A stretch of DNA of 42,935 nucleotides from a virus. The stretch's first letter is position 1. Every line of letters begins with the position of its first letter. The position numbers and the translations under genes are program-made. Under the pieces are notes generated by a model. It was not told the origin of the DNA and made no database searches. It saw nothing but the letters and a program-made list of their open reading frames with translations. The stretch covers positions 1 through 42,935 of IMG/VR virus record IMGVR_UViG_3300047322_000582; one strand, given 5' to 3'. This document shows positions 1-42,935 of the stretch, in pieces.

Positions 1-100
1 TGGCACCCACGAAAGGTTCCCGGCGGCGCATCTCTACTTCGCCGGGAGCTTCCCCGACCAGCATGATGCGCGCGGGGACTGGACCGGAGGGTGGGATCAT
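1..100 (-). CDS. UDG-DNA polymerase fusion, N-terminal fragment (duplicate of the gene at 40432-42852)
   Basis: This is the first 33 codons of the uracil-DNA glycosylase/polymerase gene, cut by the window edge and repeated in full at the right end. The start codon (complement of 98-100) overlaps the TGA of the upstream small gene in an ATGA arrangement. The encoded peptide, including the family 4-type GEAPG motif, is identical to the right-end copy although five codons differ. On the circular genome this and the right-end copy are one gene. Confidence 0.9.
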   Translation of the reverse strand, partial: MIPPSGPVPARIMLVGEAPGEVEMRRREPFVGA

Positions 101-183
101 GCGCTTCCACTCCGCTCATGCTCTGGGGCGGGCTGTTCGTCGAAGTGATCTATCTCGACGTTGAGTATGTCCTTCACTGCGGT
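1..183. repeat. Redundant contig end (copy A of 183-bp terminal direct repeat)
   Basis: Bases 1-183 match 42753-42935 except at positions 41, 44, 47, 53 and 56. All five mismatches fall on the third codon position of the minus-strand polymerase gene and are synonymous (Val, Gly, Ala, Pro, Gly codons). The repeat is best read as the overlap of a circular or circularly permuted genome assembled from two closely related strains. A packaged direct terminal repeat would be identical at both ends. Confidence 0.9.
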
Positions 184-369
184 CTCCGTTATCTTCTTCA
201 GTAACTCCTTCCACTCATTGAACAAGCCAGGCTGGCGCTGGACGACACCCCTGTGAATGCTGGCGAGAAAGTGTGCACCTTCCATTGTGGAGGGCTTTGC
301 AAAGTAGGCAACGATGCGATCGCCTTCAGTGCGGATAGCTAGGCGGACGAAGGGAGGTGGTGTACTCAT
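97..369 (-). CDS. Small hypothetical phage protein (90 aa)
   Basis: I do not recognise this protein. It is 90 aa, starts MSTPPPFVRL, has a short beta-rich N-terminus (IRTEGDRIVAYFA) and an acidic, proline-containing C-terminus. The chosen ATG (367-369) overlaps the TGA of the methyltransferase gene by ATGA, and its own TGA overlaps the ATG of the UDG-polymerase gene the same way. It therefore sits translationally coupled between a DNA-modifying enzyme and the replicase. The longer frame reaching back to 441 would overlap the methyltransferase by 76 bp and is unlikely. A replication accessory role is only inferred from position. Confidence 0.75.
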   Translation of the reverse strand: MSTPPPFVRLAIRTEGDRIVAYFAKPSTMEGAHFLASIHRGVVQRQPGLFNEWKELLKKITETAVKDILNVEIDHFDEQPAPEHERSGSA

Positions 370-1703
370 TTCAGCTCCTCGATCCGCTGCACAGCTATTC
401 CGTAGTAGGAGGGATCTTTTTCGATACCAAGAGCACTGCACTTAAGCGCGTGCGCCGCCGGGAAGATAGTTCCTGTTCCAGCAAACGGATCCAGGATTCG
501 ATCTCCTGCTCTGACAGATCGGACCAAGAGACTCGTATACAGGTTAACCGGCTTCTGCGCGCCGTGTCCGAGATTGTCATCCCCCTTGGATTCAATGACA
601 TCTGGATAGATGGCGGTGACGCGCTTGCCCCCGCGAAATGCGTAAAGGACAAGTTCATAGCTTCGTCTTGGACCATGTTCGGGCAAGGGCACTCGGCCCC
701 CTCCTTGCTTGTAGTTGATCAGGGGAGTACGAATGGCGTTCCAGTCCATGCCGACGGTTCCCGAGTTAATCAGGTCCCGAAGCCACACGAACTGGTCGAT
801 GTCACAGCAGATATACATGTGGGCCTGCGGCTTTGCCAGGCGCGAGATGAGCGGCAAGGCGTACTTCATCAACGAGCGGAATCCCAGCTCGCTGTCGGAG
901 TATTCGTGAGTGATGGCTGTCATGCGGCCGGCGCTGTCGCCGAAGTCGTCGGCGTCCATCCCGTAAGGGGGATCGGTGCAGATGACGTCGAACTGCCCGG
1001 GGTCGATCGTGTTCATCCAGTCAATACAGTCCCCCAAGTACACATGATGAAGGTGCGCTCCGAAGGTCTCACCGACGATGGCAGCGTGAACTGCGTTCTT
1101 CTCTGCGTTCTCCTTCGCTTCGAGGATCTTGAACGCCTCCTTCAGCGTCTTGGCCTTAGCGATATCCGGGTCGTCCATGTGCTTGGTGATGGCCAGGGAC
1201 TTATGCACATTGGCTCGGTACTCGCCTAGCTCCGTGGGCGGTACGTCAGCGGGAATGTCGTATACTTCCCTGGCCGTGTCGCCGGTGGTCTGCGCGGGAT
1301 TGCGCGCTAGGCGGAGCCGATGGAGACTGGAGACGGCCTCAGCTCGTTCTTGCCAGGTAAGGTCCATCCGCCGGATATTCTCCTCCAGCTCCGCCTCATA
1401 CGCATCCAGTGAATCGAGTTCCCCGAGGTTTGTCACTGGCAATCTCCCCTCGGGTACTGCCTCACCCCCGCAGCGGAATTCCCCGCCGAGGTCACGCAAC
1501 TGGCGGATTGCGCGGAGTCGTCGTTCCCCTGCTACGAGAACCCATAGAGACGCTTCGCTATTCGTCCCCGGTCGCACGACCAGCGGGTGCATCAGCCCCA
1601 GGCGCGAGATGGAGTCAGCTAGCTCCATTACACCCTGGGGGTCGAACTCTCTTCGCTGACGGTTCTCAGCTACCCTCAGTTCGTCCGAGTGGATCAGGAA
1701 CAT
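366..1703 (-). CDS. ParB/Srx-domain DNA methyltransferase fusion (N6-adenine/N4-cytosine type)
   Basis: This 445-aa protein has two parts. Residues about 1-110 form a ParB/sulfiredoxin-like domain with the VAGERRLRA box near 58-66. Residues about 215-445 form an amino-methyltransferase with catalytic DPPYG at 244-248 and a C-terminal SAM-binding DPFAGTG at about 405-411. The DPPY-before-FxGxG order fits a beta-class enzyme. It probably methylates adenine or N4-cytosine in phage DNA, giving restriction protection or marking DNA for replication; the target is not readable. The ATG at 1703 has GGAG seven bases upstream and is preferred over the GTG at 1751. The fusion is common in environmental phages. 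The gene lies between an SSB-like gene and the replicase. Confidence 0.88.
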   Translation of the reverse strand: MFLIHSDELRVAENRQRREFDPQGVMELADSISRLGLMHPLVVRPGTNSEASLWVLVAGERRLRAIRQLRDLGGEFRCGGEAVPEGRLPVTNLGELDSLDAYEAELEENIRRMDLTWQERAEAVSSLHRLRLARNPAQTTGDTAREVYDIPADVPPTELGEYRANVHKSLAITKHMDDPDIAKAKTLKEAFKILEAKENAEKNAVHAAIVGETFGAHLHHVYLGDCIDWMNTIDPGQFDVICTDPPYGMDADDFGDSAGRMTAITHEYSDSELGFRSLMKYALPLISRLAKPQAHMYICCDIDQFVWLRDLINSGTVGMDWNAIRTPLINYKQGGGRVPLPEHGPRRSYELVLYAFRGGKRVTAIYPDVIESKGDDNLGHGAQKPVNLYTSLLVRSVRAGDRILDPFAGTGTIFPAAHALKCSALGIEKDPSYYGIAVQRIEELK

Positions 1704-1786
1704 TGCTTTCTCCAGTTGGTGGGAGCGGTCGGCCCTTCCCCGACCGTGCACATATTACTGTTAGCGAGTGCAGCGCTCCCGGTGTG

Positions 1787-2239
1787 CTAAGCGCGTGGGG
1801 CGACTGCCGTCACGTCGTTGTAGATCTGGTCTCCGTCAACCCGGGGCTTGATATGCCCCTTGACGACCTGCCCGACCATCATGCGGAAGTTGAACGGTTG
1901 GCCGGGCACATTCAAGCCCATCGCCTCCCGTACCCTTCCGAGCTGGACATTGCGTCCCTTCTCCGTCGAAATCCCACCCCCTACGTTCAGGTCCAGCATG
2001 ATGCCCTGCCTCACCGTTACCTTGTCCCGGCCGAGCATTTCTTTCAGCTCTGGGTCATCGACCTCGTAAGTAATGTCGATGGCGATGCCGGACTGGGTCT
2101 GGTCCTTGCTCGTCCACGGCCGGGCCTTCACCTCCGTTGAGAGCAGGGTGTAATCCTTCTCGGGGATGGGGATGTACTGCGTGCTGTTTGCATCGGTCAG
2201 CGTAGTATCGAGAAACTGTTGCGGGTCGAATGTACCCAT
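1787..2239 (-). CDS. Probable single-stranded-DNA-binding-like protein (DUF669-like)
   Basis: This 150-aa acidic/polar protein immediately follows the Sak4-like ATPase. It begins MGTFDPQQFLD and carries an alternating beta pattern (VKARPW, AIDITYEV, QGIMLDLNV, FRMMVGQV, YNDVTAV) consistent with an OB-fold. In many phages a DUF669/DUF2815-type ssDNA-binding protein is encoded next to an AAA_24/Sak4 ATPase, so the call rests mainly on synteny plus this pattern. An AGGAG site lies eight bases before the ATG at 2239. The upstream in-frame ATG at 2323 overlaps the ATPase gene and lacks a ribosome site. Function is an inference. Confidence 0.6.
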   Translation of the reverse strand: MGTFDPQQFLDTTLTDANSTQYIPIPEKDYTLLSTEVKARPWTSKDQTQSGIAIDITYEVDDPELKEMLGRDKVTVRQGIMLDLNVGGGISTEKGRNVQLGRVREAMGLNVPGQPFNFRMMVGQVVKGHIKPRVDGDQIYNDVTAVAPRA

Positions 2240-2312
2240 GACTGTAATGCTCCTGTTGATTGAACTGAGAACCGGCGGTGCTTCAGCCCAGCGGCCGGGA
2301 CGCTTCAGCGGG

Positions 2313-3152
2313 CTATGCGGCAATAGGTTCCTTGTCGGGAACCTCGATTACTCCTCCCTGCTTTTTCCAGCTCGCAATAATGGCTCCAAAGTCGGGTGGC
2401 AGTCCATCGGCGACTGGTAGGTTTCGGGCCTTGAGGTCGGCTCCCACGCTTGCAGTGGACCAAGTGAATTTCGTACCCTGTCGCTCACTGAGGATAACGT
2501 CGGAGAAGAATCTGGGGAGGACTGGAGCGAGCTTTCGACCAAGGGTTGCAGCCATGATCTTAGTTCCTCCAACAATTTCATCTGTTTCCCTATCGACGTG
2601 CGAGATAAGGACGAAATGACAACGTGTATCGGTACAGAGCTTTTGAAATAGATTTGCCACAAGTTGCATGGCAATTCCCCAATCGCCCTGATGGCGCACA
2701 GGCTTGCTCCCGACGACGAGGCCCATTGCCATAATGCCGACTCCAGTGAGTCCGTCGACCACGATGGCACGCTTGGTTCCCCATTTACAAACGTCTCCAT
2801 ACACCTCTCCACCCCGGTCGCAGGTGTAATTATTCAGCGCTGTTAGAAAGTCCACGAACTGGCTGTATTGCGAGCGCGTGGGGTCGGACAACTTAGTAAT
2901 TGACTCGAAGCTGAGTTGATTGACATTCTTCGCCCCGGCGATCATGTTAGCCCAGGATTGGCTCGCGGGGGCGATGTACCTCCAGTGCAGTTCCTCGTGC
3001 GAAACATCGCCAAGCGTGTCATACCCTGGCTCTGTGAAGATACAAAACGGGGTAATGCCTGCCTTTATCAGCGTGCGAATGGCATACGTCTTCCCACTCC
3101 CACTCGCTCCCATCAGCAGAACATTAACCCCTGGCAAAGGCGACTTCTCCAT
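2313..3152 (-). CDS. Sak4-like AAA/RecA-fold ATPase, single-strand annealing recombinase
   Basis: This 279-aa P-loop ATPase has Walker A GASGSGKT at residues 15-22 and Walker B AIVVDG ending at about 134. A conserved FVLISHVDRE segment near 185-195 corresponds to the sensor/motif 3 strand of RecA-like phage ATPases. Such proteins (Sak4, AAA_24) work with a phage SSB in recombination-dependent replication, and an SSB-like gene follows directly. The gene has its own upstream leader with an extended -10 promoter (3289-3317) and an 8-bp-stem hairpin (3187-3214). The ATG is preceded by AAAGG. Assignment to the family is confident; a role in annealing is inferred from relatives. Confidence 0.85.
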   Translation of the reverse strand: MEKSPLPGVNVLLMGASGSGKTYAIRTLIKAGITPFCIFTEPGYDTLGDVSHEELHWRYIAPASQSWANMIAGAKNVNQLSFESITKLSDPTRSQYSQFVDFLTALNNYTCDRGGEVYGDVCKWGTKRAIVVDGLTGVGIMAMGLVVGSKPVRHQGDWGIAMQLVANLFQKLCTDTRCHFVLISHVDRETDEIVGGTKIMAATLGRKLAPVLPRFFSDVILSERQGTKFTWSTASVGADLKARNLPVADGLPPDFGAIIASWKKQGGVIEVPDKEPIAA

Positions 3153-4043: not shown

Positions 4044-4988
4044 TCAATCCAGCGGGGTGTTTGTGCGCTCGATCGGGTCCCAGCGGATTCGCCGGAAGTA
4101 GACCTTCAGCCAGGTTTCTGGCTCTGGGGACTTGCAGACGGGGACGAACTGGCATCCGCCGTAGGAGCTGCAGGAGTCGCCGTAGTTCTTTTTCCACTCT
4201 CGCTTTTCCCACGCGGTTCTAAGGTCTGCAAGATCGTCAAGTGTTGTGGCAAGCCACTCGTCAATTTCTGCTGCTGAACGGTAAGTGAGAGCTTGAGCGG
4301 AGCCATACTTCGTTTTAAGGATTGACACACCTCGCACGAGCACTCCATTTGTCTCAGTTCCAGACTCTCGTGCGGCCCAACAATAACCTGTAAACTGGCC
4401 ACGAAGTTCCCACTGTTTGGGCCAACTGTCACCAAGTTGCGTGGTTGTCTTGTCGTCTTCAATGTAGACTCCTTCGGCGAAGTCGGCGATCATATCGCTG
4501 CGGCCGACGTATAGCACGGGCTGGCGGGTGACGGGGTGGAGAAAGGGGAGTGGCTCAGCGAAGCTGAATTCGATCGCCGGGTTGCCGGAAGGCATGATAT
4601 GGGGCATTGCCTGGTTGGCGTCCCCGAGCGGCCACTCGCTGAAGTAGAAGTCCAGCGCCCCTAGCCCGCGGTCGAGCGTCTTGGCACTTTGCTCCGGGGG
4701 AACGTAGTCTCCCCAGGACTCGAAGAACGCCCGCATACCAGCCCCGAGGCATTCGTCCTGGGGCTTGCCCGCGATGTAAAACTCCTGGCGGGCTGCCTCC
4801 AGTGCCTTGGCGAAACATGCGCCAAAGTGCAGGTGAACCGACTCGCCCTCTGGCTTCCAGTGCTGCATGTGTGCGCGGAAAGCTTTGTGCCTGCAAGCGC
4901 GCCACTCGTTCATGAAGCTGGCGTCGATGACCTCGGGGAACTCGACTTCCTCATATTGCGGCAATGCGACTAACTTGTCTCCGTCCAT
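4044..4988 (-). CDS. Cas4/RecB-like PD-(D/E)XK nuclease with Fe-S cluster cysteines
   Basis: This 314-aa protein has the hallmarks of the AddB/RecB/Cas4 exonuclease family: a candidate conserved His at H54, D165 in GRSDM, the D178-D-K180 catalytic triplet in IEDDKTT, and QxxxY at Q198-Y202. Four cysteines (C32, then C273, C279 and C285 spaced CX5CX5C) match the [4Fe-4S] arrangement that locks N- and C-termini in these nucleases. It probably resects DNA ends for recombination with the Sak4-like ATPase and SSB-like protein downstream. ATG 4988 has AAGGAG upstream; the in-frame ATG at 5066 overlaps the previous gene. Confidence 0.85.
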   Translation of the reverse strand: MDGDKLVALPQYEEVEFPEVIDASFMNEWRACRHKAFRAHMQHWKPEGESVHLHFGACFAKALEAARQEFYIAGKPQDECLGAGMRAFFESWGDYVPPEQSAKTLDRGLGALDFYFSEWPLGDANQAMPHIMPSGNPAIEFSFAEPLPFLHPVTRQPVLYVGRSDMIADFAEGVYIEDDKTTTQLGDSWPKQWELRGQFTGYCWAARESGTETNGVLVRGVSILKTKYGSAQALTYRSAAEIDEWLATTLDDLADLRTAWEKREWKKNYGDSCSSYGGCQFVPVCKSPEPETWLKVYFRRIRWDPIERTNTPLD

Positions 4989-4998
4989 GCTATGCTCC

Positions 4999-5214
4999 TT
5001 AGTAAGGTCCTTCAGATACGTCCTTGCCTGGCTCCCATAACCTGCCACTCGGCCCGCAAGCATCATCCATGCGGACGTTGAAACAGTAGTTAGGCAAGCC
5101 TTTACCGGTGACCAGATCGTTTTTGATCCTCACCTTTGGAGCTAGGCACTCCCACATGGTAGCCAACTCTTCCTTCTTTACCCACTTGCAGTCCGTGCAG
5201 AACTTCTGCTCCAT
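4999..5214 (-). CDS. Small cysteine-rich protein, probable zinc-binding (71 aa)
   Basis: Starting at the ATG at 5214, the N-terminus has a CxxC knuckle (FCTDCKW) followed by further cysteines in ECLAP, NYCFN and DACGP. The pattern suggests a compact zinc-ribbon-like fold. GTG at 5217 is an alternative start, but the ATG is better spaced from GGGAG and overlaps the upstream stop by one base. The gene directly precedes the nuclease gene (10-bp gap). Function is unknown. Confidence 0.7.
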   Translation of the reverse strand: MEQKFCTDCKWVKKEELATMWECLAPKVRIKNDLVTGKGLPNYCFNVRMDDACGPSGRLWEPGKDVSEGPY

Positions 5215-9941: not shown

Positions 9942-10174
9942 TGCTTTCTCCTTCCCGGGATTATCCCGTAGTACTTGTTATCTGGCAGCATGCACATGAA
10001 ACAGCTCACGACGCCCGCCTCTGGCTCCGTGGCCGCCGGGAACCCGGTCCTGGGTTTGTTGCATGTGTCGCAGTACCAAACCGACTGGTTCCGGCAGCAT
10101 CCCCGGTGACCCGCGAGCAAGCGACATTTCCGCTTCGCCCGGGGCATATACTTCCCGCATTCCTGTCTGTTCAT
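9938..10174 (-). CDS. Cysteine/histidine-rich zinc-finger-like protein, copy 2
   Basis: A 78-aa paralogue of the protein at 5923-6156. It has CGKYMPRA, KCRLLAGHRGCC, WYCDTCNKP, GFPA and CFMCMLPDNKYYGIIP in the same order and spacing. The two copies differ most in the N-terminus and the segment between GFPA and CFMC. It overlaps both neighbours by four bases. Zinc binding is inferred from the Cys/His layout; function is unknown. Confidence 0.8.
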   Translation of the reverse strand: MNRQECGKYMPRAKRKCRLLAGHRGCCRNQSVWYCDTCNKPRTGFPAATEPEAGVVSCFMCMLPDNKYYGIIPGRRKQ

Positions 10175-10707
10175 TCTCCGTCTCCCATGATCTTCGCCAA
10201 TAGCTGTTCTGCCGTCATCGTGGCTTCAGCGATGAGGCGCCGTTTACATTTCCTGCAAATGTACGTCGCTCCGAGTTGCAGCTTCCTGTGAACCTTTGGC
10301 CCTACGAGCTGCACCGGCCCGCACGCGCAGCGATAGCGAAACTTCTCCACCATGCGAACGGGCGCTGCGCTCTCATAGCTGTGACAACGGGTCGCCGGGT
10401 GGCCGAAAGCTACCATGATCCTGCGCCAGCGATACCCATGATGCTCCTGTTTCCGCCGATGCCCTTCGCGAAAGTCCAGCGCCCAGTCCACCGCGTGCGC
10501 GTACTCGTGCGCGATTGTGGCTGCGAACTTTTCCCCCTCCGCCAACGCAATGTCCGCGTTCAGCGAGATTTCGCTGGCCCCGCCGGCCTTGTATTTACAG
10601 TGCCCGGCGGTGAGCCCTCGAATGCCCCAGTCAATGGTAACATCTGGCATCACCCCAAATCGATCCTGGGCAATGATCCTGCAGCGTTCAATCTCTGTAA
10701 ACTTCAA
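10171..10707 (-). CDS. SprT-like zinc metallopeptidase
   Basis: A 178-aa protein with HEYAH (residues 67-71) as the zincin HExxH motif and a third ligand candidate in EHHGYRW (about H90), followed by a C-terminal zinc ribbon (CACG near 127-130 and CRKC near 151-154). This is the SprT/Spartan layout: a protease acting on DNA-bound or DNA-crosslinked proteins. I prefer the TTG at 10707, with GGAG seven bases upstream, because the ATG at 10827 lacks a ribosome site and overlaps the upstream gene by 76 bp. Family assignment is firm; the substrate is unknown. Confidence 0.8.
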   Translation of the reverse strand: MKFTEIERCRIIAQDRFGVMPDVTIDWGIRGLTAGHCKYKAGGASEISLNADIALAEGEKFAATIAHEYAHAVDWALDFREGHRRKQEHHGYRWRRIMVAFGHPATRCHSYESAAPVRMVEKFRYRCACGPVQLVGPKVHRKLQLGATYICRKCKRRLIAEATMTAEQLLAKIMGDGE

Positions 10708-10751
10708 TGCTGTCTCCGGTTGGATACTTGCCGTGGTCCTGGGAAGGTTCC

Positions 10752-11036
10752 CTACGCGGGTCGCCGGTGAATCTTGCTGTGTTGTTGCAAGCGCCCGACG
10801 CTCATGATCCCTCCGCAAGCAGGACATTTCGCCAGCACCCTGTGAAAGTATCGTTGCCCGATCTTGGTGCGCTTCAATCGGTCCTTCGGCTCAACCCAAA
10901 CGATGATCCCTTGTACGTCCTGCGGGTCCATTCCTCCATCCGGCAGCGCGTCCCGTTCGCACCCGAGCAATGCTCTCACTTCGGATTTGCTGGCCTGCCA
11001 GCTGGCATGATGCGCTGTGTGAATGTAAAGATTCAT
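10752..11036 (-). CDS. Small protein with a C-terminal C2H2-type zinc finger (94 aa)
   Basis: From ATG 11036 (GGAG eight bases upstream) the protein starts MNLYIHTAHHASWQASKSEV. It ends with CPACGG, SVGRLQQH and SKIH, a C-x2-C-x11-H-x3-H arrangement typical of a single C2H2 finger. It could bind DNA or stabilise a small fold. The long frame reaching back to 11354 runs through the promoter leader and is not the gene. Confidence 0.7.
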   Translation of the reverse strand: MNLYIHTAHHASWQASKSEVRALLGCERDALPDGGMDPQDVQGIIVWVEPKDRLKRTKIGQRYFHRVLAKCPACGGIMSVGRLQQHSKIHRRPA

Positions 11037-37980: not shown

Positions 37981-39167
37981 TGGCGCTTCCTACGATTAAC
38001 TTCGGAACGAGTCGGTATGTCGCGCCTGCGGCCCCTCCCAATCCCAACACTAACGCCCTTACACAGAGTATGCTCAAGCAGAAGGCTGAGGTAGGGGGAC
38101 TAAATCCGAACTTGGTAACGCCCAGCACTTTGGGAACGCAGGTCCCGCAGCCCATGCGCCAGCTGGATTACAGCAACACATCCGGGGTGGCACCTCCAAA
38201 TACCTTGCCCCCGTCAGACACTACAACGCAGACTGGACAGGGAGGGGGACAATCAGCAGTGCCAGGCGCTTCCCAAGGCCAGCCAGGTCAAGCAACCGGC
38301 TTAGGTGGAAACCCTGTAGGCTCCGCGGGAGGAGCCCCAGGTGCGCCTATTCCCAAGCCTCCAGCTGGTACTATCCAGGATCCCCGCAGGCCACCCACAG
38401 GAGCAGTGGCCCCGCCTGATCCAAGCACAACCTCGTGGTGGGATCAACTGCATCAAGCCAGCGCGAATCCGCAGGGGATTAAGCCCTTGGTGGATGCTAC
38501 TGGACACCCGATTCCCCAAACTCAGATCAGAATGGATGCTGCAGGGCATCCTATCAACATAGGGTCAGTGCAGTCCTACAAGAGCTCAGGACCAGACACT
38601 TGGTATGGCTCGCTGTCGGGAGCGCCACAAGCTCCCACCGGCGGGGACACGACACAGCATTTTAATACCGCGAACTCCATTGCGAGCCAATCTCAATCCC
38701 CCACAGGTCAGAAGTTCCTGGCTAACATCGGCAAGTATGGACAGTCCGCGGCGAATAACTATCTGTCAATGCCACAGTCCTTTACCGTGGCTGACTTCAA
38801 CAACGTCGCCCAGTCCAACCCGACGCTGGCGGTGCAGATGCTTGGGCAAGGTGGGCAGGCAATGCAGGATGCAATAAGGAAGAACAATAACTGGACGCAG
38901 CAGCAAATGAACCAGTTTATCAATGCCTACGGCAGTGGAGCAATGCCCGGAGTGAACCAACAGAATCTTACTGCAGCAGGCTACACCGGTGGATTCGGGC
39001 CAGGGTATACACCGCCAGCCACTACACCCACTACACCTACCCCAACGCCTGCACCCCCGGGTGCCCCGGCTCCTGTGTCGCCCCCCACTACCACCGCTAG
39101 CCCCGGAGCGCAGCAAGGATTCGGATACTTCGATCCTTACTGGACCCAGTTATACGGCCAGCGCTAA
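37980..39167 (+). CDS. Large Pro/Gln/Gly-rich virion-type protein (395 aa)
   Basis: Low-complexity N-terminal 150 residues, then a helical part (QKFLANIGKYGQSAANNYLSM, ADFNNVAQSNPTLAVQMLGQGGQAMQDAIRKNNNW) and a Pro/Thr linker (TTPTTPTPTPAPPGAPAP). Ends with YFDPYWTQLYGQR. Composition resembles ejection-type proteins. Last gene of the rightward block; its stop overlaps the end of the convergent helicase gene by four bases. Confidence 0.6.
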   Translation: MALPTINFGTSRYVAPAAPPNPNTNALTQSMLKQKAEVGGLNPNLVTPSTLGTQVPQPMRQLDYSNTSGVAPPNTLPPSDTTTQTGQGGGQSAVPGASQGQPGQATGLGGNPVGSAGGAPGAPIPKPPAGTIQDPRRPPTGAVAPPDPSTTSWWDQLHQASANPQGIKPLVDATGHPIPQTQIRMDAAGHPINIGSVQSYKSSGPDTWYGSLSGAPQAPTGGDTTQHFNTANSIASQSQSPTGQKFLANIGKYGQSAANNYLSMPQSFTVADFNNVAQSNPTLAVQMLGQGGQAMQDAIRKNNNWTQQQMNQFINAYGSGAMPGVNQQNLTAAGYTGGFGPGYTPPATTPTTPTPTPAPPGAPAPVSPPTTTASPGAQQGFGYFDPYWTQLYGQR

Positions 39168-40381
39168 CCTTCCTGCGGGGTAGCGTCGGGTGGCTGGAGC
39201 GAAACCAGCATCATGGCGTTACCTTCTTGGAGTAACTGCACGTAGCCTGCATTAACGCAGCCGGCAACCACATCTGTAAAGTCCCGCATGGAAGGAAAGT
39301 AAGCGTGGATGAAGCGATATGCCTCCGCGTAGGGGACCTTGCGCTTCGAGCGGACGAAGTTCAGGAATCGATCCGTTTGCAGTGATACATCCGTCCGCCC
39401 AATCTTGCTGAAGACCGCGGGCATCCCCGCCTCCAAGTCGGTGACCATTTGTACAGCTGTTGCAAGATCTTCCACCGTGATGGTAAGTTCGTCGCGAATC
39501 GCTGCTGAGAGCACCATCGCCAGTTTATGAACATGAGTTTGCTTCCGCGCAATGTACCCCCCGAAGCGCTCATCATCCAGCCCGTTAGGCCTGTGTGTGT
39601 AGTGGTGCTTATACCACGCTTCCCCCCATGCGACTGCATCCGGGGTAAGCTTATACTCCCCAGTAAGCGAAATGGCGATATGCTCCAGGTCCTGTACCAA
39701 CCTGTCCTCAATCGCCTTGAGATCCTTGGGGACGTGCAGGCCGGGGTACGCAACATACTTTGTCTTCTCCTTAACATAAATGAATATGCACCTGGAAGTG
39801 AACCCGCCGCCGATCATATACTCTGGGAAGTTGCCTGCGATCCACGCTGGAGTCGTGCAAGCCACGAGGTTGATCCAGGGATTCTCGAACTTATCGTTAC
39901 CGCTCATTTTCGTGCGCTTCTCAAACGCTCCCTGCTTGCCATCCCAGAGGGTTACCAGAAGGTCAACCATGTCCTTGTCCGCCGGGTTCAGCAGATTGCC
40001 AAACTCGCTGGACTCGATCGTAATGGCACTCATGGGCATAAAGTCTTCGCCGTATGGGAACATTTCGGCAGCCTCGGTAAACGCGCCGACGAGCGCTTGC
40101 CAGGTTACAACATCTGGCCCGAAGTTTACCCCGGGAACCCGGCGAAGTAACTTCATCGCCAACCCCGCCGTGGTTGACTTCGACACAATCCCCGGTGGAG
40201 CCACCAGTACAATGTAAAAGTTAGGAAACCATTTGAAGTAGGCCTGATCTATCCAGACCTTCCGCCGGAGCGCTCCCGCAATCGCACTAACCCCAACCCA
40301 GAAGTACATATTTCTAGGTGCCTCACCGAACTGGGCGTAGTCGCAGAAAGCCTCCAGCCAATCGCTGAAGTTTCTGGCCAC
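39164..40381 (-). CDS. DUF3987-like replicative helicase/ATPase
   Basis: The 405-aa protein has an N-terminal KVWIDQAYFKWFPNFYIVLVAPPGIVSKSTTAG segment with a degenerate Walker A (APPGIVSKST: the second Gly of GxxxxGK is replaced by Ser before Lys) and later ITIESSEFGNLL as a Walker B-like strand. This is the layout of DUF3987-type ATPases that act as phage primase-helicase partners. GTG start at 40381 with AGGAG nine bases upstream. It follows the UDG-polymerase gene, so the replication proteins are encoded together at the end of the leftward block. Confidence 0.75.
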   Translation of the reverse strand: MARNFSDWLEAFCDYAQFGEAPRNMYFWVGVSAIAGALRRKVWIDQAYFKWFPNFYIVLVAPPGIVSKSTTAGLAMKLLRRVPGVNFGPDVVTWQALVGAFTEAAEMFPYGEDFMPMSAITIESSEFGNLLNPADKDMVDLLVTLWDGKQGAFEKRTKMSGNDKFENPWINLVACTTPAWIAGNFPEYMIGGGFTSRCIFIYVKEKTKYVAYPGLHVPKDLKAIEDRLVQDLEHIAISLTGEYKLTPDAVAWGEAWYKHHYTHRPNGLDDERFGGYIARKQTHVHKLAMVLSAAIRDELTITVEDLATAVQMVTDLEAGMPAVFSKIGRTDVSLQTDRFLNFVRSKRKVPYAEAYRFIHAYFPSMRDFTDVVAGCVNAGYVQLLQEGNAMMLVSLQPPDATPQEG

Positions 40382-40431: not shown

Positions 40432-42852
40432 TCATTTACAGTCACCCCATGATTTAGCTGATGTTTTAATGCTAAGGGGGATAACCAGTGGGTCGTCGTA
40501 GGGAACCGAAACCCGCTTGGCTATGTCCAGTATCTGTGCCTTGTACAGTACGGCGATGTTGCTGGGAAACTGCCCTGCCAGGGAATCATGCACCTGGAGT
40601 AGCACCTGAACGTCGGGAAGCTGGTGATAGACGTTCAGCCAAATCTGGTTGATGAAGTGGCCTACAGTTGACTGAGGAACCCATGCGATGGCCTCGGGAA
40701 GTTCCGCGTCGATACGATCAAAACTGTATCGCCGGAATCCAAAGCGATTGTCGACATACTTGTGTGTCTTGAGCTGTGCAGCAACCCTCTCGTGCCACCG
40801 CTTGATACCGGGATGAATACTGAACCATCGAAGTTGGAATCGTTCAACTTCATGATAGGGGATTCCGAAATTTGCAGAAACAGTACGTGCGCTTCCGACA
40901 TAGTTAGTGGCATGTACCACCTGTCGTGTAATTTGACGCTTAGCATAGTACTTTGCCTTAGTCTCTGGAAAATTCGGGTGGGTTTCCAGTAACTCATCAT
41001 CGCTGATGGGCAGGTTGTAGACCGCCCGGGCGCTGTGCAAGTGAATGTCTACCCTTCGACGTAATGCGGACTTCAAATCCTCGTCATCAGCTTCCCACGC
41101 CACCACCTGTAAATCCGCTCGGTCCAGGTCGCAGTCGAAGAAGGTAAAACCGGGGTCAGGAATGAAGAGTGTTTTAACATTAGGAAGTTGCAGTGCATCG
41201 ACGTCTTCGGAGGCGTCCCCTCCGGCGGGAATATTCTGAAGATTAAGTCCAGAATCAAACGCATTTTTGGAGGAGGAGAGTCGCAGCGTAGACGTACCTG
41301 CAATGTTATAAGAACATCGGAGTCGCGAGTCTCGATCGAGCCTTGCACCAACGAAGGTAGAAAGGAAAACTCCGAGCGATCGGTATTCACGGATGTTCCT
41401 TATGAGTGGACGAAGGATAGGCTCTCGGACCGCGATCTTTTGCAGGGCCTCATCGTCAAGCGTGACCTCGTGGGACTTGCGGGAGATGATTTCCCGCTGC
41501 TTGAAGTCCCCGTAGAATAGGTTGCGCATCTGCAGGGGGGAGCGTGGGTTAAGTGCATGACCAAGGATCTTGATGAACCACGCTTCACGCTGGCTGATTT
41601 CGTCCTGGAGTTCGAGGGCGAATTCGCTCCGCCTTTCCGTGTCCACCCGCACCCCTCGGATCATTGCCTGTAATACAGGCCAGAACATAGCCTGCTGGAA
41701 GTCGCTCTGCGTCCGCAACCCCAGCTTGTCTACGGTTTTCTGGATGTTTTCATCGCACTCGAAGGTGATGACACAGTCTTTGCAGTTATACGCCCAGAGC
41801 TGGTCCTCACCCGTTTTCCTGTCCCAGTTCTTGCCCTCGGCTTTCCAGTAGACATGCTTTTCGCAATACATGCTTGATAGGTAGTCAAGTCCCTTAGGAA
41901 GTGTAGTAAAGCAGCTGTGATGCCCAAGCATTGTATCTCGGTCAAACCGAGGGGAAAAGCCCCAGTGTCGCCAGAAGTACTGCGTGTCGTAGATAAAGTT
42001 CTGTCCCACAACCCTAGCGTTTCGATGAGTAAGGACCTTTCGAAGGAGAATGATAACAGCAACTTCCTCCTCTGGAAGCCAGTACCCTTCAGGCCGTTCA
42101 ACACACATGAACGGGATGCAGAGAGCACTTTGTTTATCGCGAGCGATGCCGACGCAGGCAATGTGGCCCGACCTGGTTTCGATGTCACAAGCGAGAGTCG
42201 TGGGGCCGGTTTCGAGGACTTCAAGGCATTTCTCCAGGTAGGAAAAAACTGTAGAATAACTGGGGCGCAATAAAAACGAATACTCGGACCCCGTAATTGT
42301 GTCAGTCGCTATCTCCCCTTTCGCCCTGCGCAGGTCCTGTACGCTTATGTTTCTTGCGCTCCAGTCGCGCATGATATATGCCGGGTGGTAGACCGGGATC
42401 ACCTTGGGTGACCGTGAAGATGACAGCCCTTCCGTGGACAGTAAGCTTCCCCGCCAGGACTTTATCCCCCATTTCCCGGTCAAAGCCCACATGGACACAT
42501 TTCCAAAGGCCACGATAACATTGGGCTTCACCATATCTATTTCCGCCTGCAGGAGCTGGAAGCCCGCCAGCACGATTGGTTTGACCATCTTGTCCCGCAT
42601 CGGGACCATGTCCTCTGTGATTCGCTTCTTGACTTTTGGAATCCATAGCTCTATATCGTTCCCCGGGGGTTGATCTCTGCAGACGTTGGTGAGAAAGCAC
42701 TCGCTGCGCATGATGCCAGCTTCGTGCAGTAGGTCGTTTAAGAGCTGCCCGCTGGCACCCACGAAAGGTTCCCGGCGGCGCATCTCTACTTCCCCCGGCG
42801 CTTCGCCAACCAGCATGATGCGCGCGGGGACTGGACCGGAGGGTGGGATCAT
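40432..42852 (-). CDS. Uracil-DNA glycosylase-family A DNA polymerase fusion (replicase)
   Basis: An 806-aa fusion. Residues 1-185 are a family 4/5-type UDG (GEAPG 16-20, PFVGASG 29-35, HPAY 156-159). About 215-380 are a 3'-5' exonuclease (DIE at 223-225, D289, D359). About 385-806 are a family A polymerase: motif A FFDCDLDRADLQ (D575), O-helix R639/R643/H647/Y651, motif C QVHDSL (H755-D756). By alignment to E. coli Pol I, the steric-gate Glu is Asp (D580), Lys758 is Arg (R643), Phe762 is His (H647) and Glu883 is Ser (S757). It replicates phage DNA and may scan for uracil. The ATG (42852) overlaps the upstream gene by ATGA. Confidence 0.92.
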   Translation of the reverse strand: MIPPSGPVPARIMLVGEAPGEVEMRRREPFVGASGQLLNDLLHEAGIMRSECFLTNVCRDQPPGNDIELWIPKVKKRITEDMVPMRDKMVKPIVLAGFQLLQAEIDMVKPNVIVAFGNVSMWALTGKWGIKSWRGSLLSTEGLSSSRSPKVIPVYHPAYIMRDWSARNISVQDLRRAKGEIATDTITGSEYSFLLRPSYSTVFSYLEKCLEVLETGPTTLACDIETRSGHIACVGIARDKQSALCIPFMCVERPEGYWLPEEEVAVIILLRKVLTHRNARVVGQNFIYDTQYFWRHWGFSPRFDRDTMLGHHSCFTTLPKGLDYLSSMYCEKHVYWKAEGKNWDRKTGEDQLWAYNCKDCVITFECDENIQKTVDKLGLRTQSDFQQAMFWPVLQAMIRGVRVDTERRSEFALELQDEISQREAWFIKILGHALNPRSPLQMRNLFYGDFKQREIISRKSHEVTLDDEALQKIAVREPILRPLIRNIREYRSLGVFLSTFVGARLDRDSRLRCSYNIAGTSTLRLSSSKNAFDSGLNLQNIPAGGDASEDVDALQLPNVKTLFIPDPGFTFFDCDLDRADLQVVAWEADDEDLKSALRRRVDIHLHSARAVYNLPISDDELLETHPNFPETKAKYYAKRQITRQVVHATNYVGSARTVSANFGIPYHEVERFQLRWFSIHPGIKRWHERVAAQLKTHKYVDNRFGFRRYSFDRIDAELPEAIAWVPQSTVGHFINQIWLNVYHQLPDVQVLLQVHDSLAGQFPSNIAVLYKAQILDIAKRVSVPYDDPLVIPLSIKTSAKSWGDCK

Positions 42853-42935
42853 GCGCTTCCACTCCGCTCATGCTCTGGGGCGGGCTGTTCGTCGAAGTGA
42901 TCTATCTCGACGTTGAGTATGTCCTTCACTGCGGT
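42753..42935. repeat. Redundant contig end (copy B of 183-bp terminal direct repeat)
   Basis: Same 183 bp as at 1-183 with five third-codon-position differences at 42793, 42796, 42799, 42805 and 42808. See copy A. Confidence 0.9.
42849..42935 (-). CDS. C-terminal fragment of the small 90-aa gene (duplicate of 97-183)
   Basis: Last 28 codons plus stop of the gene annotated at 97-369, truncated by the window end. The stop overlaps the polymerase start by ATGA, as at the left end. Confidence 0.85.
   Translation of the reverse strand, partial: TAVKDILNVEIDHFDEQPAPEHERSGSA

Follow-up and report, generated by a model that had tools for sequence, protein, structure and literature searches.

A phage DNA polymerase that joins a family-4-like uracil-DNA glycosylase to a family A catalytic domain with histidine at position 762

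Introduction

Why should a phage replicase carry a domain that recognizes uracil, and what kind of nucleotide pocket does such an enzyme use? Both questions are raised by a single gene at 40432..42852 (-) of a 42,935-base virus record, which as a whole is called the window below. Its 806-aa product (P0001) combines a uracil-DNA glycosylase (UDG), a proofreading exonuclease, and a family A polymerase (PolA) with unusual residues in its active site. Among these is residue 762 (E. coli Pol I numbering), which sets nucleotide selectivity in the Pol I and T7 enzymes (PMC13228545, PMC9069017). The reading that we consider quite probable is that the protein is a phage replicase with a family-4-like UDG, a proofreading exonuclease, and a coupled Asp710–His762–Ala845 pocket. 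The UDG would contact DNA, recognize uracil, and excise it in the window virus, with binding or architecture as the role common to the whole group.

Genome and Gene Neighborhood

The first and last 183 bases of the window (1-183 and 42753-42935) are identical at 178 positions, so the genome is probably complete at about 42,752 bases. The five mismatches all fall inside 16 bases, at third codon positions of UDG motif 1 (residues 15, 16, 18, 19, and 20). The probable explanation is a circular or terminally redundant genome whose two ends were drawn from two strains. The virus appears to be a tailed phage of roughly 43 kb, and the 806-aa protein would be its replicative DNA polymerase. Binned relatives gave no reliable host signal, as L136–L141 are found in MAGs of unrelated phyla and all but one of these six contigs measure 24-45 kb. 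Elsewhere in the window, a SprT-like metalloprotease domain with a zinc ribbon is found at 10171-10827 (-).

The 806 codons of the polymerase gene are uninterrupted by any in-frame stop. An in-frame stop lies 18 nt upstream of its ATG, which rules out a longer N terminus, and the choice of start therefore hides no truncation. The gene sits in a module that is conserved across 89 distinct relatives (defined below), in the order Sak4, a protein of 169-178 aa, ParB–methyltransferase, polymerase, DUF3987. Directly downstream of the polymerase is the DUF3987 protein (39164..40381, -; PF13148, 2.6e-15), found beside 84 of the 89 polymerases. Closing the genome ends places a gene for a ParB_N and N6/N4 DNA methyltransferase protein (366..1751, -; PF02195, PF01555; beside 80/89) directly upstream. 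Beyond it lie a 178-aa protein (1787..2323, -) that found no match in Pfam and PHROG searches, with its family beside 82/89, and a Sak4-like ATPase of the kind associated with ssDNA annealing (2313..3152, -; phrog_124, 2.5e-15; beside 75/89). A PD-(D/E)XK exonuclease is encoded at 4044..5066 (-; PF12705, phrog_1218).

Genes of thymidylate and dUTP metabolism are not typical of the group: thymidylate synthase was found in none of 50 related viral records and dUTPase in one. Nor was a second UDG found in the 50 related records scanned, where the UDG is single and always fused; the extra match in the window is the terminal overlap. Together with the conserved module, these findings fit a phage replicase engaged in recombination-linked replication and do not fit a modified-base phage.

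Domain Architecture and Closest Known Systems

Three Pfam domains follow one another from the N to the C terminus, each above its curated cut-off. The UDG domain covers residues 4-168 (42349..42843, -; PF03167, 2.1e-24), the 3'-5' proofreading exonuclease residues 207-374 (41731..42234, -; PF01612, DNA_pol_A_exo1, 4.4e-7), and the polymerase residues 409-797 (40462..41628, -; PF00476, DNA_pol_A, 1.4e-35). This bears out the first-pass annotation, which had proposed all three in a single polypeptide. PHROG 17 ('DNA polymerase'; phrog_17) spans residues 10-805 (2.1e-82), and BFVD returns structural matches over the full length of the protein. An AlphaFold model of the protein alone, DNA-free and built with 80 homologous viral sequences, has a mean pLDDT of 93.9 and a pTM of 0.89; in Foldseek, the nearest solved structures are Klenow (the best solved match, TMt 0.79) and Bacillus polymerases. 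The activities named throughout are predicted ones. For the exonuclease, all five catalytic residues (D223, E225, D289, Y355, and D359) are present and invariant in 89/89 relatives.

Fusion of a UDG with a family A polymerase is already known from SPO1 and PHROG 17. SPO1 and its relatives share with the window protein the order UDG, exonuclease, polymerase on one chain, as well as an HDS motif C. At about 21% identity, however, the SPO1-type enzymes carry F762, E710, and N845, and their UDG pocket is partly changed, with M for F54 and S for N80, both of which the window protein keeps. Further F762 phage polymerases (L128, L129, L132, and L133), in which the UDG region is intact, degenerate, or vestigial, lie beside thymidylate synthase and mostly dCMP deaminase genes too, unlike the group described here.

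Relative to the Klenow part of E. coli Pol I, the window protein retains the fold, the exonuclease residues, and D705, R754, Y766, and D882. It differs in having a UDG in place of the 5' nuclease and in H762, D710, A845, and S883, to which the window virus adds R758. A further likeness is to PDB 9QHS ('Putative DNA-directed DNA polymerase I', 1142 aa), residues 9-71 of which match the window UDG domain (2.2e-6). That protein is larger than the one described here, and the listed matches of the window's polymerase region do not include its polymerase.

Unusual Residues in the Polymerase Active Site

Residues were numbered by alignment to E. coli Pol I, T7, and an SPO1 relative, which gives D705=D575, E710=D580, R754=R639, K758=R643, F762=H647, Y766=Y651, Asn845=Ala723, and H881-D882-E883=H755-D756-S757. 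In motif A (D575-L-D-R-A-D580; 41113..41130, -), Asp580 occupies the position of the Glu710 steric gate. The O-helix, or motif B (residues 636-650; 40903..40947, -), reads R639-x3-R643-x3-H647 and is followed by Tyr651; it places Arg643 (40924..40926, -; codon CGA) at Lys758 and His647 (40912..40914, -) at Phe762. Ala723 (40684..40686, -) stands at Asn845, and motif C is H755-D756-S757 (40582..40590, -), an HDS that is also found in SPO1L1.

A shifted O-helix can be ruled out, given that R639, R643, and H647 all lie within one predicted AlphaFold helix, 636-650, in agreement with the alignment. The register proposed in the first-pass annotation, with His at 762 and Arg at 758, is thus correct, as are its assignments of Asp for Glu710 and of HDS in motif C. 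A computational study of Pol I describes E710 and Y766 as universally conserved in family A (PMC4882331). Here the Tyr is present and Asp replaces Glu in 89/89 relatives, a conservative exception that leaves family A membership unaffected; D575 and D756, the equivalents of the catalytic Asp705 and Asp882, are invariant in the same 89.

A Clade with Histidine at Position 762

One sequence scan returned 40 relatives; when IMG/VR was scanned with a profile, at least 546 contigs matched. The group is large and mostly uncultured, with Microcystis phage Mel-JY34 among its cultured members. From these enzymes a set of 89 distinct full-length members, window included, was used to define the clade. H762, D710, A845, and S883 are invariant across all 89, as is the HDS of motif C. 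Position 758 behaves differently: the other 88 distinct members have the usual O-helix Lys, and the window has Arg. An assembly or base-call error can be rejected, as the near-identical L002, an independent assembly with 11 nt different in 1,956, has the same CGA codon and Arg recurs in L051; L003, 85% identical, has Lys. Arg758 is thus a recent change private to the window virus and two relatives, and H762, D710, and HDS form the clade signature. Single-sequence scans with L146, L132, and L129 as queries returned close relatives only.

The polymerase gene is interrupted in some relatives. In five it is split into two genes (L035 6540-6760, L036 4900-5300, L041 6240-6720, L048 5600-6260, and L140 6500-7730) directly after a conserved NLQN(I/L)P-type motif, at window residues of about 544-555, a low-confidence loop of the AlphaFold model. 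Small unrelated ORFs lie between the halves in 4/5, and L036 also has a helicase-like ORF there; the second half is seen in 4/5, as the L036 contig ends before it. Rfam searches gave no intron match at the split sites of L035, L036, L041, and L048, which speaks against group I introns there. Split family A polymerases are known in the OM43 phages MEP401/402 (PMC10580990). The polymerase of Caulobacter phage Kuura (L047, 3977-7381) is split elsewhere, at window residues of about 337/351, and two small ORFs separate its halves. L029 (4911-8306) has an in-frame insertion of about 290 aa in the O-helix region (FIHG^TNYGG); its first residue is Cys and it ends in TGN before Thr, so that it looks like an intein at the polymerase active site.

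Linked Changes at 710, 762, and 845

Across 277 distinct phage PolA polymerase domains, with counts that include related sequences, residue 762 is tightly paired with two other positions. His762 occurs with Ala845 in 162/162 cases, Phe with Asn in 105/106, and Tyr with Asn in 6/7. At position 710, His762 is accompanied by Asp in 159/162 and by Glu in 3, and Phe or Tyr by Glu in 113/113. The three H762/E710 cases are the deep-branching enzymes of Kuura, Tiera, and a Desulfofustis phage. Two members of the actinophage group have V or L at 762 and keep A845 and D710.

Histidine 762 and the UDG are separable. UDG-fused F762 enzymes are found in SPO1L1, MW202455, and vir526, and UDG-free H762 enzymes in Tiera and in phages of Streptomyces, Mycobacterium, and Actinoplanes. 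The full triad D710-H762-A845 is present without a UDG in cultured phages of the last three hosts (Streptomyces phage Asis, Mycobacterium phage phiGD24-3, and Actinoplanes phage phiAsp2). The Streptomyces and Mycobacterium phage proteins (666 and 594 aa) begin at the exonuclease, and motif C in this actinophage group is HDE or HDA rather than the HDS of the window.

In an unconstrained tree, the UDG clade and the actinophage clade fall apart, as would be expected from two independent origins of H762. Yet a tree constrained to keep H762 as one clade is not rejected (AU p 0.667) and fits better by 13.7 log units. The triad could therefore have arisen as one joint change that was then passed down, rather than through repeated coupling. 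The incoming dNTP is normally contacted at its sugar and triphosphate by a Phe or Tyr, in whose place His647 stands. With Asp710 and Ala845 changed along with it, the result would be an alternative nucleotide pocket in which dNTP selection is retained. Our search of the literature found no biochemistry for any H762 family A polymerase.

The first-pass annotation had remarked that His is not one of the commonly discussed states of residue 762, and published work supports the remark. Papers from 2018 and 2026 describe Phe, Tyr, and Leu groups (PMC6302109; PMC13228545), and a 2022 survey of viral PolA discarded any sequence that lacked R688, D705, K758, or one of F, L, and Y at 762 (PMC9069017). 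Under such a filter, the His762 group could not be seen. The phage 762 literature searched, in which coverage of subscription papers was incomplete, contains no mention of His762; in the literature searched, neither the coupling of H762 with 710 and 845 nor recurrent UDG inactivation was found.

A Glycosylase Domain Retained throughout the Clade

The UDG domain aligns to the solved family 4 enzymes 1l9g/1vk2, 1ui0, and 4zbx and matches TIGR00758 (UDG_fam4) at 2.2e-27, below the cut-off of that model. In Thermus UDGa, the uracil pocket consists of E41, G42, E47, F54, N80, and H155, with N89 for the catalytic water (PMC5387724); read in that order, the window residues are E, A, E, F, N, H, and N. 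The equivalents of four of these residues in T. thermophilus (Tth) UDGa were traced across the 89 members: Glu17 (42802..42804, -) for Glu41 of motif 1, by alignment to 1ui0 (E in 82); Asn56 (42685..42687, -) for Asn80, which contacts uracil N3/O4 (N in 78; PMC5387724); Asn65 (42658..42660, -) for Asn89 (N in 64; PMC5387724); and His156 (42385..42387, -) for His155, which stabilizes the leaving group (H in 64; PMC5387724). GEAPG at 16-20 and HPAY at 156-159 agree with the family 4 motifs GE(A/G)PG and an HPA start as defined in PMC10359453. The same definitions exclude UdgX, as the motif is not GEQPG and the KRRIH R-loop is absent from residues 1-200. The motif set E-A-P-E-F-N-N-H is complete in the window and, applied strictly, in 46/89 members.

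Two features set the domain apart from UDGa, apart from its fusion to a polymerase. It has about 25 extra residues inserted behind the PPxN motif, and it lacks the ligands of the 4Fe-4S cluster carried by family 4 UDGs (PMC10359453): the N-terminal CxxC is found in 0/89, and the equivalents of C84 and C100 are replaced. Since the F762 outgroup fusions MW202455 and vir526 retain these Cys ligands, the cluster was probably lost within the H762 UDG lineage. Even with the pocket residues in place, a domain stripped of these ligands could be weaker or inactive as a glycosylase.

In 25/89 members, L052 and L067 among them, S, P, A, T, or G stands in place of the catalytic His. The tree implies 15 or more changes of state at this site, and N89 has become Gly in 11 of the 25. 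The domain itself is retained in 89/89, the His-less members included, and its invariant positions include the scaffold residues L42, P110, W122, L124, S136, and D173. Between the window and L003, dN/dS is 0.13 for the UDG and 0.11 for the polymerase; His-less pairs mostly have UDG values of about 0.1-0.3, well below 1, and polymerase values of 0.02-0.1, and His-bearing pairs are similar. The domain is thus under purifying selection even in UDG-dead lineages. A second UDG standing in for the dead ones was found in none of the 50 records, and no family near the 89 polymerases tracks UDG loss convincingly (best p 0.015, uncorrected).

What the UDG Domain Does

With the catalytic His gone in 25/89, excision cannot be an obligatory role of the domain. 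Its presence in every member under purifying selection indicates that it is kept for something besides, or other than, excision. Most likely, the UDG fold touches DNA, either template or product, and recognizes uracil; in the window virus, where the full residue set for excision is present, it is probably also an active glycosylase. Since excision has been lost repeatedly and the domain never, what the group as a whole conserves is probably a binding or architectural function; a noncatalytic role in binding uracil or DNA, beside optional excision, is likely. The earlier suggestion that the polymerase handles uracil at the fork survives in part: the catalytic residues whose conservation it called for checking are complete in the window, but the refutation it had itself proposed, relatives with a UDG inactive at its catalytic residues, holds in part, since the catalytic His is gone from 25/89.

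An unlikely alternative is that the domain is simply a replication-coupled eraser, which removes uracil at the fork and is being shed by His-less lineages that no longer need it. The complete catalytic set of the window, the 46 strict and 64 His-bearing members, and the low dN/dS between the window and L003 speak for such an enzyme. Shedding is harder to reconcile with a domain that is never lost and that stays under purifying selection once dead. Moreover, an abasic site made in the template by a replicase would block that replicase, and an abasic-site repair gene was not identified among the window proteins scanned, a subset of the genes.

The opposite possibility, a structural remnant with vestigial uracil chemistry that would now do no more than bind DNA or aid folding, as other N-terminal extensions of phage PolA do, also seems doubtful. 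It draws on the group-wide loss of Fe-S ligands present in the outgroup fusions, the repeated replacement of the catalytic His, and the scaffold residues among the invariant positions. A vestigial site would not be expected, however, to retain His in 64/89 members, almost always together with E41, E47, F54, and N80.

Rather unlikely, too, is a reader whose main task would be to detect uracil before it reaches the active site and to stall the polymerase, with no need to cut, much as archaeal family B polymerases do with their N-terminal pocket. Retention of the domain in all members is consistent with this, as is the partial upkeep of the pocket when His is lost, with F54 kept in 21/25 and N80 in 15/25. 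In some of these members the pocket nevertheless decays, N80 being changed in 10/25 and E47 being replaced by Asp in 17/25.

SPO1 is known as a phage in whose DNA thymine is replaced by hmU. A replicase whose unusual pocket serves a noncanonical nucleotide (Z, hmU, or U DNA), as the first-pass annotation had entertained, is very improbable here: beyond the SPO1 precedent, weak matches to models of the aminoadenine polymerase DpoZ, and F762 fusions of other phages that adjoin thymidylate synthase or dCMP deaminase genes, it faces an NCBIfam DpoZ score of 57 against a cut-off of 500 bits, Leu/Phe at 762/766 of DpoZ (PMC8599892; L455 placed by its spacing to F459) against His/Tyr in the window, where Tyr651 departs from the Phe-for-Tyr766 that defines DpoZ (PMC8599892), and the scarcity of thymidylate synthase (0/50) and dUTPase (1/50) noted above.

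Implications

Residue 762 serves as a marker of phage replication lifestyle, with Phe, Tyr, and Leu as its published states. Several hundred viral contigs at least are related to the His762 polymerases and fall outside this scheme, since a filter for F/L/Y and K758 was applied in one key survey or more. A more far-reaching proposal, put forward tentatively, is that D710-H762-A845 constitutes an alternative coupled pocket and a fourth major 762 phage group beside Phe, Tyr, and Leu, filtered from surveys, and that the UDG of its largest branch is a uracil reader in which eraser activity has repeatedly been switched off. His762 together with the changes at 710 and 845 predicts altered discrimination against dideoxy- and ribonucleotides. 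A UDG that has been inactivated repeatedly, yet never lost, offers a natural experiment on why a replicase carries a uracil-recognizing domain.
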